From: Shouchella rhizosphaerae
Lineage (GTDB): Bacteria > Bacillota > Bacilli > Bacillales > Bacillaceae_D
DNA length: 64,000 nt
Assembly: GCF_900142675.1 (NCBI RefSeq)
Contig: NZ_FRBS01000005.1
Span: 1,134-65,133 of the forward strand
Direction: 5' to 3'
Shown: positions 57,887-63,966 of the stretch, piece by piece
Numbering within the stretch: the stretch's first letter is position 1
Layout: the number at the start of each line of letters is the position of its first letter
The notes under the pieces: model-generated
What the model saw: only the letters and a program-made list of their open reading frames with translations
Database searches by the model: none
Told to the model about the DNA's origin: nothing
Translations under genes and position numbers: made by a program

Positions 57887-57915
57887 TTAGTGAAAGTAGG
57901 TTCCGTCACGGGGAT

Positions 57916-57935
57916 CCTAGTCCTACCGTAAATTG
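57916..57935 (+). repeat. Direct repeat copy right of the alkA-ada block
   Basis: CCTAGTCCTACCGTAAATTG, the partner of the 21-bp sequence at 55283-55303, 2.6 kb away and just past adaB. Confidence 0.6.
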
Positions 57936-57953
57936 GGTAGAGTGGAATAAAAC

Positions 57954-57983
57954 AAAAAATCCCCGCCGCTAATTTGCGGGAAT
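57954..57983 (-). terminator. Terminator of the LXG immunity gene string
   Basis: On the minus strand ATTCCCGC and GCGGGGAT form a stem followed by six T. It lies just past the last small gene. Confidence 0.85.
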
Positions 57984-57993
57984 GACTACATAA

Positions 57994-58242
57994 TCACTTG
58001 TTCGAATACTTGTTAATCCAATTCTTAATATCACCATCATCATACATGTATTCTCCAGGAGCCAATAGCGTATCTAGGCCTGAGACAACTGTTAAAAACT
58101 TGAAAACAGTTAGATCCGTTACAGGGTGATCGTCTGTCACCACATATTTGGAGGCCCAGTCAGCCACTTCTTCTTTTGTAAGTTTATTTTGTAGCACAAG
58201 CTCCAGTTTATCAATAATCTCTTGTTTAGCAGGTTCTCTCAT
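57994..58242 (-). CDS. 82-residue protein of unknown function, possible immunity protein
   Basis: A soluble acidic protein opening MREPAKQEIIDKLELVLQNK and containing EEVADWASKYVVTDDHPVTD. Helical with no membrane span and no Cys. AAAGGTGG lies eight bases before the ATG at 58242. It is the last gene on the minus strand after the LXG toxin and membrane proteins; small soluble proteins in such places are often immunity proteins for toxins whose genes are lost or elsewhere. I recognise no named family. Confidence 0.65.
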   Translation of the reverse strand: MREPAKQEIIDKLELVLQNKLTKEEVADWASKYVVTDDHPVTDLTVFKFLTVVSGLDTLLAPGEYMYDDGDIKNWINKYSNK

Positions 58243-58298
58243 TTTCTTTACCACCTTTCGATCGTGTATTTCCCCTTAGCGACTTGAGGGGAATCATT

Positions 58299-58628
58299 TT
58301 AGGTAAGTCCAAAAAGTAACCCTGTAGCCATTGAAAAAGAACCTATCATGATATACATGCCTTTAAACTCTTTTATTTTTTGGGTTAGAGATAAATGTTC
58401 GTTTACTACATAAATGTGTTGAAACTGAAATGCATTCAATTTTGGTGCGGCTATGTAGCAAACGAAGCAAGTGGCAAAAATAAAGACAATAATGGAAATT
58501 AGATCATATGACCAGCCATTCGATAAAAGTGTTACAGTATACACAATGATAAATAGGCCAATCATATACAGAGGCATAAACACAAATGCTAAAAGCTTGT
58601 TTTTTTTGTTTAATTTTCGATCTGCCAA
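58299..58628 (-). CDS. Small membrane protein, putative immunity protein 3
   Basis: A 109-residue protein with three hydrophobic helices. The N-terminal NKLLAFVFMPLYMIG corresponds to NKIQAFLLMPLYMM and NKFQAFVLMPGIIM in the two other small membrane proteins of this locus, and all three share a cytoplasmic-type FVCYIAAPK/FCWVYVPIS/ICWVCNPFF stretch and a late KIKEFK/KEKVKK helix. It starts at TTG with AAAGGAAG upstream, 15 bp after the stop of an orphan toxin tip. I infer immunity to that lost toxin. Confidence 0.7.
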   Translation of the reverse strand: MADRKLNKKNKLLAFVFMPLYMIGLFIIVYTVTLLSNGWSYDLISIIVFIFATCFVCYIAAPKLNAFQFQHIYVVNEHLSLTQKIKEFKGMYIMIGSFSMATGLLFGLT

Positions 58629-58643
58629 GTGCTAACACTTCCT

Positions 58644-58799
58644 TTATCGGTCATATAGCCAACCAAAAACCCCTGGGGAGGAACGGTTTTCGTACTCACT
58701 CATATGAGCCTTTCCGTTTGCATCAACTTCTATATACACTTTTGTATCCCATGTTTCCCCTTCATCAGTACTTATTCCACCAGCAGAAGGAAAAGGTAC
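58644..58799 (-). pseudogene. Orphan C-terminal tip of an LXG-type toxin
   Basis: A 51-codon open stretch without a start codon. It contains STDEGETWDTKVYIEVDANG, which aligns with DDEGKTWDTKVHIEVEPNG (residues 466-484) of the LXG toxin at 59710-61242; over 28 aligned positions I count 17 identities. The end diverges (SSPGVFGWLYDR). Upstream is a TAG in frame. This is what remains of a second toxin tip, placed directly before a putative immunity gene, as in polymorphic toxin loci that swap tips by recombination. Confidence 0.75.
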
Positions 58800-58854
58800 A
58801 TGTCTCTATATTAAAATAAAAGCTAATAGGTTTATAGTTGATGTTTCAAACAAA

Positions 58855-58897
58855 TTCCGTCTCGAATATAGATGAACCTCTTGGTTTCGAGACGGAA
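58855..58897 (-). terminator. Hairpin after putative immunity gene 2
   Basis: TTCCGTCTCGAA and TTCGAGACGGAA form a perfect 12-bp stem; on the minus strand TTTGTTTG follows. It lies between immunity gene 2 and the orphan toxin tip. Confidence 0.65.
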
Positions 58898-58901
58898 AAA
58901 T

Positions 58902-59216
58902 TTATCCGTGATGCATAATCAATGCACAAACTGCAATACCGATAGTGGTTACTGCATATCCTGCAAGTGTTGGTATATATTTCATTATTTTGTCTTTGAG
59001 GGGCATATCCGCATCCTCATAAAACATCTCCTTATATTCGTTTATTTCAAAGAAGGGATTACATACCCAACAAATAATCAAAGGGGCTGCAATTACTGGA
59101 ATCACCCCTTGATAATTTGTTTTCCCTAAAGTGAAAATAAAATAGAGCATCCACGCTACTAACATAATAATGCCAGGCATCAACACAAAAGCTTGAAATT
59201 TGTTACGTAAGTCCAT
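58902..59216 (-). CDS. Small membrane protein, putative immunity protein 2
   Basis: A 104-residue protein with three hydrophobic helices and related to the neighbours at 58299 and 59357 by the opening NKFQAFVLMP, the ICWVCNPFFEI stretch and the polar PLKDKIMKYI helix. The ribosome site before the ATG is weak. It is the second gene after the LXG toxin. A membrane immunity protein would protect against a toxin acting in or at the membrane. Confidence 0.72.
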   Translation of the reverse strand: MDLRNKFQAFVLMPGIIMLVAWMLYFIFTLGKTNYQGVIPVIAAPLIICWVCNPFFEINEYKEMFYEDADMPLKDKIMKYIPTLAGYAVTTIGIAVCALIMHHG

Positions 59217-59356
59217 CTATCTTTTCTCATGCTGTTCCATCTAATCACCTACTTGTTATCTTAAGGAACACCTCTCAAATTATGAAATAGATTGCTCTAA
59301 ATTCAATTCGAATTATACGTTATTTTACATTTTGAGATGAAAATTACGGTGTTTCA

Positions 59357-59695
59357 TTATTGTGTGAAGTGGTATAGGAAAGCGATCCCTGCAAAGAATG
59401 CAGCTACGATGCTATATTCTGCTATAGCGCGACTATTTTTTTTAACTTTTTCTTTGATAGACATGGATTTGTCCTGATAATAAAGAGTGTTAAAGTGAAA
59501 TTTGTTACTAATTGGAACGTATACCCAACAAAAACCAATAGTTAAAATCAAAATGGTTATGACTCCTTCTGCTTTTATAAAAGTTAAGGAAGTAACAAAA
59601 TACAATGATAATGAAACTGCCATCATATAAAGCGGCATTAACAGAAATGCCTGTATTTTATTCCAAAAAGTCATAGATGTAGTTGGTTCTTCCAT
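59357..59695 (-). CDS. Small membrane protein, putative immunity protein 1
   Basis: A 112-residue protein with three hydrophobic helices, the closest gene to the LXG toxin (15 bp gap; a GTG frame from 59713 overlaps the toxin stop). AGGTGAG precedes the ATG at 59695. NKIQAFLLMPLYMM, IGFCWVYVPIS and MSIKEKVKK match the two paralogs downstream. By position it should be the cognate immunity protein of the intact toxin. Confidence 0.75.
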   Translation of the reverse strand: MEEPTTSMTFWNKIQAFLLMPLYMMAVSLSLYFVTSLTFIKAEGVITILILTIGFCWVYVPISNKFHFNTLYYQDKSMSIKEKVKKNSRAIAEYSIVAAFFAGIAFLYHFTQ

Positions 59696-59709
59696 ATATC
59701 TCACCTGCC

Positions 59710-61242
59710 TCACTTATTATCTTTTGTAAAGTATTCAATTACTTTATCTACAATATTTTTTCGGTCTTCATAGTCGCCTATTCTAACTTCCCCATTAGGT
59801 TCGACTTCGATGTGCACTTTTGTATCCCACGTTTTACCTTCATCATCACTTAGCCAAACAATTATCTCCTGACTTCCTGTTTTGGGCATCGGCGTTCCAA
59901 TAATAGGCAAACTACCTATCACAAGGTTTTTACCATAATCTTTTCCGAAATCAACAATTGTTTTATCATTTTTTTCTTTTATCTCACCGGCGTCCTTATT
60001 ACTGTTATTTATTTTTTTAGAATCACCACGAGAGAAGGATTTACCTATTCTATAACCTATAATTCCACCAAAAAACGTTGTTAAGTGACTTATGATAACG
60101 TTAGACTTTGTTTGCGTGTATCCATTTGTATAATAGTGTACATCAGGATCGTTTCTAAATAAGATAAATTCTCCATTTTCAACCGTATAATGAAGTTCTT
60201 TACCTGACACGGTAGTAAACGTATGTACACGTACCCCAGCGTCTTTTAACGCTTCTATATCTACGTACTCCCCTTTTACTTCAACATGCCCGTCTCCCCA
60301 ATCGTTGATAATCTCGCCTTGCCCCATCTTGGCCACATCTTGAATTTCGTTCCCGTTCGCGTCGACAGTTGTACCTGCAATCTGATGATCTGGCGAGTAA
60401 TGATGAACCACATCGATATGGCCACCAGCCAAATAAAGTCGCTTAGCCGCATTTAAGATGAACGGATTGTTAAAATGAATAAATCCAAACGGATTTGGTG
60501 AAAGCAAGAAGTTCTGTGTATGTACCGCTTGGTCGTTAAAGTTCTGATATGGAGTCAATACATTATACGTGCCATTTAACATCGGATGCATCGCTTTTAT
60601 TTCTGGTGGCACATCTTGGGAAGCAATGTAGCCGGCAAGTGCCGTAATGCTAACACCTGATTCAATCGCCCCATTTAAGCCTGCAACAAACGAGCTAATT
60701 GGCGCCATCAACGAAATCAGTTGATCGACCGCTGCTGATTGCGCATGGTCGAAAGCATAGAGCTTTTCAACCGTATTCATTGCATGCTGCTTCGCTTCGT
60801 GTATCCCTTTTTGTACGGCGCTTGTGTCAATTTTAGGCAAAGACACAATATCCGAGACGCTATCAACAACACCATTAATTCTGTCTTGATGTTGTTGGAT
60901 TCTTCGCTGATTTTTTTCTAATTGAGGAATGACTTCTCCTTCAATAAAGCTTTCATCAATCACTGCATCGCTGCTCTCAAAGCTTAGCGCGTTCATCCGC
61001 ATTTTTGCCGTAGCTATTTTAACTTGTTGGCAGGCCATCGTCCAATAGGAAAGCAGCGGCACATGGTTATTGGCGTAAAAGTTTTTGAGCGCTTCTCCGC
61101 CTTGCCCTGTGAGATTGTCTCCCAAATTCACGACGCCTTGAATAGCAGAATGAATGTTGCTCAATGTCTCTGTGTACTGATTCATGTCCGAGTCGATCTT
61201 ATCGAGGGCAGAGAAAAAATCAGAGGCAACATACTTTTTCAT
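59710..61242 (-). CDS. LXG-domain polymorphic toxin, type VII secretion substrate
   Basis: A 510-residue protein. Residues 1 to about 205 are an LXG domain (LTGQGGEALKNFYANNHVPLL near 43-63, long helices after it), which directs export by the type VII secretion system. Residues about 215-370 form a linker or pretoxin region (GGHIDVVHHYSPDHQIAG, DWGDGHVEVKGEYVDI). About 385-405 is a Gly-rich hydrophobic segment, FFGGIIGYRIGKSF. The C-terminal 100 residues include LVIGSLPIIGTPMP and a short beta-rich DDEGKTWDTKV domain I do not recognise. AAAGGAG precedes the ATG. The toxic activity is unknown; membrane immunity proteins and the Gly-rich helix suggest a membrane target. Confidence 0.88.
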   Translation of the reverse strand: MKKYVASDFFSALDKIDSDMNQYTETLSNIHSAIQGVVNLGDNLTGQGGEALKNFYANNHVPLLSYWTMACQQVKIATAKMRMNALSFESSDAVIDESFIEGEVIPQLEKNQRRIQQHQDRINGVVDSVSDIVSLPKIDTSAVQKGIHEAKQHAMNTVEKLYAFDHAQSAAVDQLISLMAPISSFVAGLNGAIESGVSITALAGYIASQDVPPEIKAMHPMLNGTYNVLTPYQNFNDQAVHTQNFLLSPNPFGFIHFNNPFILNAAKRLYLAGGHIDVVHHYSPDHQIAGTTVDANGNEIQDVAKMGQGEIINDWGDGHVEVKGEYVDIEALKDAGVRVHTFTTVSGKELHYTVENGEFILFRNDPDVHYYTNGYTQTKSNVIISHLTTFFGGIIGYRIGKSFSRGDSKKINNSNKDAGEIKEKNDKTIVDFGKDYGKNLVIGSLPIIGTPMPKTGSQEIIVWLSDDEGKTWDTKVHIEVEPNGEVRIGDYEDRKNIVDKVIEYFTKDNK

Positions 61243-61259
61243 TAGCTATGCTCCTTTCT

Positions 61260-61523
61260 TCATTGATTGGCCAAAGCCCGGTCTATTTCCCCGTATATTT
61301 TAATTAGCTGTTGGCTCTCTTGTTTCGTTTTGTTTAACGTTTCCATATACGACTTGAGCTGCGCTTGATATGCTTTCTCCAAGTGGTTAAGTTGCTCAAG
61401 AACATCAAGTGATGATGTTGCCATTTCAATTGTTGCTTCTATTGAAGCTAAGCCAGTTGCAGCATTTGTGACATGTTGAAACACTTCTAATGCGTTACTT
61501 TCATTCACTTTGATTTCTGCCAT
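61260..61523 (-). CDS. YwqI-like (DUF5344) helical partner of the LXG toxin
   Basis: An 87-residue helical-hairpin protein that opens MAEIKVNESNALEVFQHV. It is like YwqI of Bacillus subtilis, found before LXG toxins. Such WXG100-like partners bind the LXG domain and help targeting to type VII secretion. AGGGTGATG precedes the ATG at 61523. It lies between the YwqH-like gene and the toxin, with gaps of 5 and 17 bp. Confidence 0.83.
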   Translation of the reverse strand: MAEIKVNESNALEVFQHVTNAATGLASIEATIEMATSSLDVLEQLNHLEKAYQAQLKSYMETLNKTKQESQQLIKIYGEIDRALANQ

Positions 61524-61528
61524 TTTCA

Positions 61529-61924
61529 TCACCCTGATTCATTTTGCAGACGCTTGAACATCGCTACTTGCGATTGTTTAACGTCAATAAGTGTGTGTGC
61601 GTGTTGAATATCACTTCGCAAAAGGTTGATTTTCCTTTCAATTGAGGAAATGATCTCTTCCAACTGGTCTTCAGAGGCTCGATAAGACGTTTCTAAACTA
61701 GAACGCTTGGTGTCATGGTCATTTGCTTCGTTTCCATGCCATACCCCAGCGGTTAAACCTGGTTCTTGTAACTGTGCCTTTTCGTGATGGAAAGAGACCT
61801 GTTGTTCCATAAGAGTGCTTTTCGCCTCTTGAAGACGCCTGATATCTTGCTGGATGGACGCAATTTCCCCACGAAGCGAACCAACTTCATTTCTCAACTG
61901 GGTAATGTTTGCTGAATAATCCAT
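61529..61924 (-). CDS. YwqH-like (DUF5082) coiled-coil partner of the LXG toxin
   Basis: A 131-residue, almost wholly helical protein with heptads in LRNEVGSLRGEIASIQQDIR and LEEIISSIERKINLLRSDI and a central TAGVWHGNEAND, where the W-x-G turn is typical of WXG100-related proteins. It matches YwqH/DUF5082, the first gene of the ywqHIJ toxin operon. GAAGGGG precedes the ATG. It should assemble with the LXG domain for export. Confidence 0.84.
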   Translation of the reverse strand: MDYSANITQLRNEVGSLRGEIASIQQDIRRLQEAKSTLMEQQVSFHHEKAQLQEPGLTAGVWHGNEANDHDTKRSSLETSYRASEDQLEEIISSIERKINLLRSDIQHAHTLIDVKQSQVAMFKRLQNESG

Positions 61925-62418
61925 TCGTATATACCCCTTCTTTTTCCATATATATCAAGCATAAAAGAATCCTTTTACATGTTCAACTATTTCAAGCCTA
62001 AAAAAACCAGGTAATTACAAGTGATAAAGTCGAAAGTGTGCTGCGACAAAAATAAGCCTCGGACTAAGACAGGCGAGGTCAATCGTAAACTTTAACAATG
62101 ACGGTTTCTCTTTGATCAAACGTTCCCCCAAACGCCTTTGAGACCAACAGCTTTGGCCGTTTGAATAACAGTAGGCAAATCTTAACTTAAAGTAAATAAA
62201 CGCCCAGACAAACTTACCCTTTTATTGGGAAATATACTATTAGTTACTAGGAATGACATTTACCTAACTGCCATTTTAAGGATTTTTCATGTTTTCATTC
62301 TTCAAAAATGGAAAATTCCCAACTGCAATAAACGAATTTTCCCAATGTCAAACCCGCTATTGCTAGCACTTTTTTATGTTATAGTGCTAGTACACCGGAT
62401 ATCGTGGAGGTGACCAGC
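61925..62418. other. Divergent control region between LXG locus and AimR-like gene
   Basis: No complete gene. On the minus strand about 62180-62079 reads like the end of a coding sequence (FDQRETVIVKVYD then TGA), with a possible frameshift before it and a weak CCTCG/CGAGG terminator after it, so a gene remnant is possible. The right end holds the AimR-like promoter region with an inverted repeat at 62363-62390. Confidence 0.45.
62363..62390. promoter_or_regulatory. Inverted repeat over the -10 region of the AimR-like gene
   Basis: CTAGCACT and AGTGCTAG are perfect 8-bp arms 12 bp apart; TATAGT at 62380-62385, a likely -10 box, overlaps the right arm. It ends 28 bp before the start codon. 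It is a candidate operator for the receptor protein or for a repressor. Confidence 0.5.
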
Positions 62419-63534
62419 TTGGCTTGGATCAGTGAAGAAAACAAGGCGTTACTGGCAAAAGAAGGCATGAAACGTGGACAAACGCTTACATACGATTCGG
62501 TTGTACAATTGACCAAAAAGTATCCTTCGCTAGAGTTTGAGGATATATTGACGATCGTGAAGTATGTGGATGAAGATCATTTCAAACCTCTCATGATTTC
62601 ATATTGTAAAGACGCTAAGAAGCTCCAAGAGGTTTATTCTTCATTTGAATTTGCTTTTGTTTATAAAGATTTAGCACTTATTGATTATCTTATCAATCGT
62701 CACCAAAACGATGTATTATTGACTCATTGCTGTAAAGTTTATAGTTTAGGAAAGCGTTTATTAGAGAATAACATATCGGCTGAGAATCTTTTAATTAGTA
62801 CCCAATCTTTGTTGGCTACGAACGAACATGATGCTACTTATATAAAATTAAAGCTTTTAGAATTCACAGCCTTTTTAAGGATGAAACAATTACAAACTGC
62901 ATTTTATTTACTACAAAAACTTGAAATTACGATTAGTCAATTGGACAATCGATACTTAAAAACTGTCTTCGCTGCTCGTTTTTCTTGTAACTTAGCTCTA
63001 GGCTACTTGAATACTCATGCTGACTTTGAGAAGGCAGAACTTTATGCTTTAAGCACTGTTGTTAATCCAACTTCAGAAAACATCCTCTTAGGAGCTGCTT
63101 ATAGGATTTTAGGACAAATTTATCTATATCAAAAAAACAAATTCGATCAATCCTATGAGCATTTTCAGTTAGCAATATCTATTTATGAGGAAATTAATGC
63201 CCACGACCAAATAGATAGTATTTTATATCAAGATATTGTATTTTTGCATAATCTTCATAATAAGTATATTGATTTAAATGAAAAAGTTGATTTAGAGGAA
63301 CAAGCACACCAACATATAGTAAGAGGCAATAGAAAAAGAGCATTAGAATTGTTAAATTTACAGGAAAGTAAGTACGGTGCTTCAAAATATAGCTTTTTTT
63401 ATCGTGCTAAAGCTACAAATAACATTTCTTTCTATATGAACGCTTTAAAGATTGCAGCAAAGGAAGGAGAGATTCCTGTCTGTTATTGGATGTTTGAAGA
63501 ATTCGACAAATTGATATTAACAACGCTCAACTAA
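62419..63534 (+). CDS. AimR-like TPR peptide-pheromone receptor
   Basis: A 371-residue helical protein. Features that match, from memory, phage SPbeta AimR in order are EFEDILTIVKYV plus LMISYCKD in the N-terminal part, KVYSLGKRL, the TPR pairs through ILLGAAYRILGQIYLYQKNKFD and AHFQLAISIYEE-like repeats (YEHFQLAISIYEE), and DLEEQAHQHI at about 291-300 (DLQEQAH in SPbeta AimR). AimR proteins bind DNA as dimers until a short peptide blocks them. The TTG at 62419 has GGAGGTGA five bases upstream. A pro-peptide gene follows 15 bp after the stop. Other RRNPP families such as Rap are less alike. Confidence 0.8.
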   Translation: MAWISEENKALLAKEGMKRGQTLTYDSVVQLTKKYPSLEFEDILTIVKYVDEDHFKPLMISYCKDAKKLQEVYSSFEFAFVYKDLALIDYLINRHQNDVLLTHCCKVYSLGKRLLENNISAENLLISTQSLLATNEHDATYIKLKLLEFTAFLRMKQLQTAFYLLQKLEITISQLDNRYLKTVFAARFSCNLALGYLNTHADFEKAELYALSTVVNPTSENILLGAAYRILGQIYLYQKNKFDQSYEHFQLAISIYEEINAHDQIDSILYQDIVFLHNLHNKYIDLNEKVDLEEQAHQHIVRGNRKRALELLNLQESKYGASKYSFFYRAKATNNISFYMNALKIAAKEGEIPVCYWMFEEFDKLILTTLN

Positions 63535-63549
63535 AAGGAGGCTTAAAAA

Positions 63550-63672
63550 ATGATAAGACAACTATCAGTAGCCTTATTAGTAGCCTTTGTTTTAAGTTCT
63601 TCTCCCTTATATCCTACTACTATGGATAGTCACCAGCCCTTAGGAGGGGTTGGCGGGGCCGACAGCTTTTAA
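63550..63672 (+). CDS. AimP-like 40-residue signal pro-peptide
   Basis: A small gene directly after the AimR-like receptor with AAGGAGG eight bases before the ATG. The peptide begins MIRQLSVALLVAFVLSSS, a Sec signal peptide with a basic N-region and hydrophobic core, then about 20 residues ending LGGVGGADSF. Size, order and architecture are those of Phr and AimP precursors, whose C-terminal part is released outside as a 5-6 residue pheromone and re-imported by Opp. Known phage AimP peptides often end in Gly-Ala; here GGVGGA is followed by DSF, so the mature form is uncertain. Confidence 0.72.
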   Translation: MIRQLSVALLVAFVLSSSPLYPTTMDSHQPLGGVGGADSF

Positions 63673-63706
63673 ACGAGGTTGGGACTTAGCTAGCAAAAAT
63701 AATTAC

Positions 63707-63755
63707 AAAAAGGTTCTAATCATCCTTTTTAGATGATCGGAACCTTTTTGGTTTT
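63707..63755 (+). terminator. Terminator after the AimP-like gene
   Basis: AAAAAGGTTC and GAACCTTTTT arms with inner ATCATC/GATGAT pairs form a long stem (two mismatches), followed by a T-rich tail. It closes the receptor-peptide unit 35 bp after the stop. Confidence 0.8.
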
Positions 63756-63786
63756 CTATATCTCTTGTCCCAATACTAAGCCTATT

Positions 63787-63966
63787 TTACTCCTTCATCC
63801 TCTCTTTAGCTTCCCCCTCCATCTCTTGGGCTTTGCCTTTTAGTTTGTCTTTCTTGCCGTCTGCTTGCATTTTTTTATTGTCTGCCGCTTTTCCGGCAGC
63901 TTCTTTGGTTGCTCCTTTTGCTTTGTTTGCTGCGCTTTTCATTTTGTCGGTTGTTCCGTTTGCCAT
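63787..63966 (-). CDS. CsbD-family stress protein
   Basis: A 59-residue, very hydrophilic, Lys/Ala/Glu-rich protein: MANGTTDKMKSAANKAKGAT at the start and DKLKGKAQEMEGEAKE near the end match the CsbD/YjbJ family, general-stress (SigB-controlled in Bacillus) proteins of unknown mechanism. AAAAGGAGG precedes the ATG. The promoter lies at or beyond the window end. Confidence 0.83.
   Translation of the reverse strand: MANGTTDKMKSAANKAKGATKEAAGKAADNKKMQADGKKDKLKGKAQEMEGEAKERMKE

Follow-up and report, generated by a model that had tools for sequence, protein, structure and literature searches.

Why would a bacterial chromosome carry an AimR-like receptor gene together with an adjoining pro-peptide gene where no phage is visible? 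This question is raised by a stretch of 64,000 nucleotides from Shouchella rhizosphaerae (G000:C7:1134-65133, here called the window), in which the two genes lie between an LXG toxin operon and a CsbD-like gene. The original prediction, made from the letters alone, had offered two interpretations, a host chromosomal quorum-sensing pair or the edge of an element. Our follow-up leads to a reading that we consider quite probable, namely that the pair is a host-owned chromosomal member of the arbitrium (AimR/AimP) type of peptide quorum sensing, with pherotypes swapped as cassettes and a fixed output. Genomes are denoted by codes, with G000 for the source genome (4.24 Mb, genus Shouchella), G002 for S. 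shacheensis, G004 for S. clausii AKU0647, G006 for Bacillus sp. JCM 19041, G007 for S. lonarensis, G011 for S. tritolerans, and G005, G009 and G010 for further genomes compared.

Both members of the proposed pair, a 371-residue AimR-like tetratricopeptide repeat (TPR) protein and a 40-residue exported-type pro-peptide encoded 15 bp behind its stop codon, were borne out. The receptor scores 104.3 bits against the NCBIfam model NF038310, 'AimR family lysis-lysogeny pheromone receptor' (cut-off 70), which also matches 24/24 aligned relatives, and its PHROGs match is phrog_1728. The predicted structure (predicted local distance difference test score, pLDDT, 92) adopts the AimR-type TPR fold, and its best 16 Protein Data Bank (PDB) matches are all AimR. 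As a single sequence the receptor finds no AimR chain at E ≤ 1 among solved structures, and only a family profile, built from 12 receptors, reaches the AimR crystal sequences (E 1.7e-18). The Pfam AimR model PF22871 is absent from the receptor's matches at E ≤ 0.1, which speaks against the family call, and does match one mobile-type relative. Since NF038310, phrog_1728 and the fold outweigh this missing match, the receptor is, judged by profile and model, a member of the AimR family. TTG 62419 is the likelier start codon, because GGAGGTGA stands just upstream and because residues 1-6 of the longer form, starting at GTG 62404, are modelled with low confidence. A weak likeness of residues 4-44 (window 62428-62551) to nicotinate-nucleotide adenylyltransferases (E 0.0013) was taken as chance.

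The small gene, which has AAAAGGAGG upstream of its open reading frame (ORF), is also conserved beside homologous receptors. One fixed rule was applied: the ORF had to be signal-like, 28-70 aa long, preceded by a ribosome-binding site and to start at -20 to +80 from the receptor stop. Such an ORF was found directly downstream of 36/48 distinct receptors (45 from Shouchella, 3 from other genera) and of 2/788 other genes used as controls (Fisher 2e-50; orthologues are counted, so the rows are not independent). GG-started C-terminal stretches recur in several chromosomal pro-peptides, namely GGVGGADSF in the window, GGSGIVISD in G010, GGGTNYINP and GGGSVPIIIP, and on account of this recurrence we propose GGVGGADSF as the mature peptide; the pro-peptides of S. 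shacheensis and of a polyketide synthase (PKS) locus have no such end, which weighs against the proposal. In several mobile-type pro-peptides the likely mature part is hinted at by a nearly identical unit that occurs two or three times (GPNQPIIE/GPTQPIIN; GPTQPGTGT). At L069, downstream of 10999, Bacillus sp. JCM 19041 has one receptor followed by two successive pro-peptide ORFs, the second similar to the peptide of the G009 orthologue. Some receptor loci have no peptide gene, such as the syntenic group L088/L091/L095. Together with L104, a row left out of the peptide count as a duplicate, this group represents a syntenic chromosomal AimR-like receptor in four species for which no downstream peptide gene was found, a candidate listener.

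The chromosome around the pair is collinear with G010, G004 and G011, at 91-95% identity left of 57892 and about 96% right of 63785, and variation against these genomes is confined to 57893-63784. This collinearity on both sides marks the 5.9-kb segment, which holds the LXG operon and the receptor pair, as a chromosomal island and not a phage. The earlier view that no phage is visible agrees with these syntenic flanks, in which no phage gene was seen, and the neighbours are as described, with the LXG operon divergent on the left and the CsbD gene convergent on the right. Of the two interpretations offered, the host chromosomal pair is upheld by synteny; the edge of an element to the right is ruled out by synteny and a PHROGs scan. 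Carriage by a phage or plasmid was likewise rejected: the 50,697 phage and 72,556 plasmid records searched by tblastn contained no match at E ≤ 0.01, a search too insensitive to pick up the distant AimR phages already known, and no relative was confirmed in viral contigs searched with two motif patterns. In G010 the island also contains, behind the LXG gene, a pair of genes (L059 15912-18235) that we take to be IS21-like.

Within the island, the comparison of G000 with G010 reveals a sharp break inside the receptor gene. Identity is 95-100% per 60-bp bin over 61861-62580, without a mismatch in the first 178 nt (first 59 codons) counted from GTG 62404, falls beyond 62580 to 43-67% per bin and to 18-33% in the last three bins up to 63780, and is restored at CsbD, to 84% and then to 97-100%. 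The proteins follow the same pattern, with 98% identity in residues 1-60, 40% in 61-100 and 39% from 101 to the end, and the break falls between model helices 45-55 and 57-69, at the edge of the output module. As read from this alignment, the TPR part of the receptor and the peptide gene have been replaced as one cassette, with the N-terminal module and the flanks kept. Variation between species also affects the end of the LXG gene, left of 60343, together with the genes that follow it. Only two intact alleles were seen at the window locus, which weighs against the reading.

A second locus, at G000:C8:279264 with its orthologues, has an LXG gene and toxin/immunity fragments upstream. Between the allele groups {G000, G011} and {G004, G010}, residues 1-60 are 93-100% identical, residues 61-100 80% and the rest 40-41%, compared with 97% for the rest within the groups. 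Between about -93 and +207 nt, the identity of G011 is 97-100% with G004/G010 and 93-97% with G000, whereas its cassette matches that of G000 at 95-99%, a conflict between flank and cassette that we regard as a signature of recombination. Two observations at this locus complicate a simple exchange: over -151 to -93 G011 sides with G000 once more, so that a single cassette does not account for the whole mosaic, and G000 and G011 have the cassette in common but not the adjacent immunity-side genes. The break points of the two loci differ, at nt 178 in the window and nt 230 at the second locus. At a third locus, which adjoins type III PKS and ICMT genes and lies tens of kb away from LXG, these four species (G000, G004, G010 and G011) show 93-100% identity in every part and a conserved peptide end. 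No swap was seen in the multi-species comparison of the orphan-receptor locus and the L089/L096/L101 locus, and the L069/L098 locus has 88% identity in residues 1-60 and 67% after residue 100. Taken from these alignments, the two swapped loci give the appearance of a switch in pherotype while the output module stays the same.

AimR-like genes were surveyed at E ≤ 1e-6 in the genus, including the source genome, in the family and in the rest of the order. All 13/13 Shouchella genomes contain them, with 1-15 each and 52 in total, two of which are remnants, compared with 1/23 genomes from the family's other genera and 2/24 from the rest of the order. The family is nevertheless widespread, as NF038310 matches 80/397 genomes of the order, in a survey where four candidates were scored per genome and copy numbers are lower bounds. 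In a midpoint-rooted tree of 79 rows, one group (46 rows, support 100/97) takes in the Shouchella rows plus a single row from a different genus of the family. It includes a 34-row clade with most syntenic chromosomal receptors and those of S. lonarensis, and a 10-row clade with an FtsK/SpoIIIE-type gene at most four genes upstream in five rows (Pfam-checked in one). The window receptor groups with its orthologue from G010 and the receptor of S. shacheensis in a trio with support 100/99. The receptors of L092, L094, L099, L102 and L103 adjoin FtsK/SpoIIIE-type genes in settings looking like integrative conjugative elements, and four of their five pro-peptides contain repeated GPxxP-type units. 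S. lonarensis (L072, L075-L084) has 15 AimR-like genes in a 2.6-Mb genome, three receptors being less than 7 kb from an LXG gene and two lying no more than about 9 kb from one of its three EssC genes.

Whether the fixed output includes the neighbouring putative toxins is an even call. The operon has an LXG domain and small partners, and the source genome has an EssC gene (G000:C10), as expected for an LXG operon of a type VIIb secretion system (T7SSb). As judged from gene positions, the receptor may control this divergent operon: an LXG gene lies within 12 kb of 9/52 receptor genes (1.76 expected), and in G004 and G011 the island site is reduced to about 0.8 kb with a C-terminal receptor remnant, the LXG and peptide genes being gone, a joint loss that we count in favour of the link. 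The strongest competing explanation, to which we give slightly less than an even chance, holds that the pair controls itself and scattered genes but not LXG, and that its site beside LXG is a shared variable-island hotspot. Several observations weigh for it and against LXG control. The nine linked receptor genes represent only five distinct loci, and 43/52 receptor genes have no LXG gene within 12 kb on their contig. S. shacheensis has a receptor of the window clade with its peptide in the same chromosomal neighbourhood without LXG or EssC, G005 too has receptors without either, and in S. clausii AKU0647 the same LXG operon is present at another site, which has no receptor and where just 69 bp upstream of the operon are conserved. 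A mere hotspot would on the other hand leave aside that linkage exceeds expectation and that swapping occurs at both LXG-linked loci compared and not at the PKS locus of the same four species. A different route from quorum sensing to LXG toxins has already been published: in B. subtilis, according to the accessible part of PMC12935306, the ywq operon, which includes the LXG toxin YwqJ, is expressed less in a rapP comA double mutant.

The intergenic region between operon and receptor contains a TTGGGAA box, a motif first spotted in chromosomal receptors, the mobile-type clade playing no part in its discovery. It occurs at most 250 bp upstream of 24/48 receptor genes versus 45/1077 other genes, in 7/9 mobile-type rows tested, entered as 7/10 in the Fisher test, and in only 1/13 S. 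lonarensis receptor rows, and is genome-wide no commoner than its reversed control (49 vs 60). Because it also precedes receptors with a canonical helix-turn-helix (HTH) and is found in so few S. lonarensis rows, the box is probably a host regulator's site rather than the receptor's operator. No box stands close upstream of the five receptor-less LXG genes that were read, the nearest being about 1.5 kb from the LXG domain, a further point against control of LXG. AimR-type operators have a 25-bp spacer, as given in the portion of PMC6458997 available to us; such an operator was rejected for the window, where a search of 61900-62440 gave seven inverted pairs, 0/7 with a 25-nt spacer, and one 7-nt inverted pair in the counterpart region of G010 does have this spacing. 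For the perfect 8-nt inverted repeat listed in Table 1, a rough estimate puts the number of repeats of this kind arising by chance at about 0.5.

How the output would be exerted depends on the N-terminal module. Its helices are present yet reduced relative to the AimR HTH, according to the models and the fold and profile alignments. Both receptor models have only two helices ahead of the TPR part; the loop that joins them, of 9 residues, is longer than the turn of a canonical HTH. Fold alignments reaching the N-terminus start at AimR residue 16-24 (9 in one chain), so that the first AimR helix has little or no partner, and the profile alignment to mobile-type relatives leaves an 8-residue gap in the HTH. 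With an HTH so reduced, DNA binding by the receptor is putative. The same features favour a Rap-like alternative that we regard as possible but rather unlikely, in which the chromosomal receptors lost DNA binding and their N-terminal helices hold a partner, for example a response regulator, that the peptide frees; loss of the HTH is described as the founding event of the Rap subfamily in the accessible text of PMC12700828. That the pair is what remains in the chromosome of a former arbitrium phage or integrative element is very improbable, for although the AimR family is best known from phages and mobile-type relatives in the genus adjoin an FtsK/SpoIIIE-type gene and an XRE-type repressor, orthologues are syntenic in several species with no phage gene seen in the flanks, and reading frame and peptide gene are intact.

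The features of the locus are collected in Table 1. The three small hydrophobic proteins are candidate immunity genes by their position. A simple terminator scan did not list the hairpin behind the pro-peptide gene. No aimX gene was found downstream of the pro-peptide, where the convergent CsbD gene follows after the probable terminator; non-coding RNA was not searched for.

Table 1. Features of the receptor-peptide locus and its neighbourhood (window positions).
Feature	Position	Strand	Basis and remarks
Three related small hydrophobic proteins	58299-58628, 58902-59216, 59357-59713	-	no Pfam match over cut-off
LXG-domain protein	59710..61242	-	PF04740, 201 bits; last part (left of 60343) differs between species
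DUF5344 LXG partner	61260..61532	-	PF17279
YwqH-like LXG partner	61529..61924	-	PF16888
Divergent intergenic region	61925..62418		95-100% identical to G010 per 60-bp bin; carries TTGGGAA boxes and inverted repeat
TTGGGAA boxes	62225 (+), 62316 (-), 62339 (-)	both	motif search
Inverted repeat CTAGCACT-N12-AGTGCTAG	62363-62390		perfect 8-nt arms, 12-nt spacer
AimR-family TPR receptor, 371 aa	62419..63534	+	TTG start; 376 aa if GTG 62404; profile, fold, ORF reading
N-terminal module, reduced HTH	62419..62581	+	three helices in model; kept identical between species
Swapped cassette (receptor TPR part, peptide gene, terminator)	62582..63784	+	60-bp bins share 18-67% of their nt with G010, those of the flanks 95-100%
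Pro-peptide gene, 40 aa, signal-like N-terminus	63550..63672	+	ORF; candidate mature end GGVGGADSF, from relatives
Likely intrinsic terminator (AAGGTTC..ATCATC/GATGAT..GAACCTT, T run)	63706..63752	+	read by eye
CsbD-like gene, conserved right flank	63787..63966	-	Pfam scan, genome comparison

By analogy with the family, the pro-peptide would be exported and cut down to a few C-terminal residues, probably all or some of GGVGGADSF. Opp would carry this short peptide back into the cell, where its binding in the groove of the TPR domain would change the conformation of the receptor and hence its output. Replacement of the cassette would create pherotypes in which only cells of the same allele hear each other, the output being unchanged. 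This output may, at about even chances, include the divergent T7SSb operon, so that a kin-private signal would gate a kin-discriminating toxin; alternatively it may consist of autoregulation and other genes. More speculatively, and with considerable doubt, the system could form a private-language lock: a host-adopted arbitrium receptor would gate LXG toxins, its signal-reading cassette being swapped between species by homologous recombination onto a fixed output module, so that pherotype and toxin repertoire diversify together, the canonical HTH having been lost in parallel with Rap. The two loci with their knife-edge domain swaps constitute a natural experiment on how receptor-peptide specificity changes at constant output, and on whether the privacy of signals evolves hand in hand with kin discrimination by toxins. 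Among open-licence PubMed Central papers we found none on cassette swapping in the AimR family or on a tie to LXG.

Arbitrium peptides follow a general xxxxGA pattern. The Shouchella pair shares with AimR-AimP of the Bacillus phages SPbeta, phi3T and Katmira the receptor family, the fold and an adjoining exported-type pro-peptide gene, but differs from phage arbitrium in being chromosomal and syntenic, in its reduced N-terminal HTH, in having no aimX seen and in its gene order LXG-receptor-peptide-CsbD. Its GG-started peptide end is probably longer than the arbitrium hexapeptides, such as GMPRGA (PMC6458997, in the part available). Rap-Phr and NprR-NprX likewise comprise TPR receptors of exported and re-imported peptides, with a fold similarity to the window receptor clearly below that of AimR.

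The genus Shouchella was once placed in the Alkalihalobacilli. Chromosomal AimR relatives from that group are already in print as 'subfamily 21' of RRNPP, to which the Shouchella receptors very likely belong; the accessible text of PMC12700828 gives their placement in a tree and nothing on cassette swapping or LXG. AloR-AloP of the Paenibacillaceae similarly shows many chromosomal receptor-peptide pairs per genome with the peptide gene directly downstream, but belongs to another receptor subfamily and has as its tested target spo0E, downstream of the peptide gene (PMC7425212, available part). For AimR genes outside prophages and plasmids, the available part of PMC9765709 reports a propeptide candidate in 11% and reads the chromosomal receptors as likely eavesdroppers without peptides. 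Most Shouchella receptors have a peptide gene, and thus look like complete host systems.
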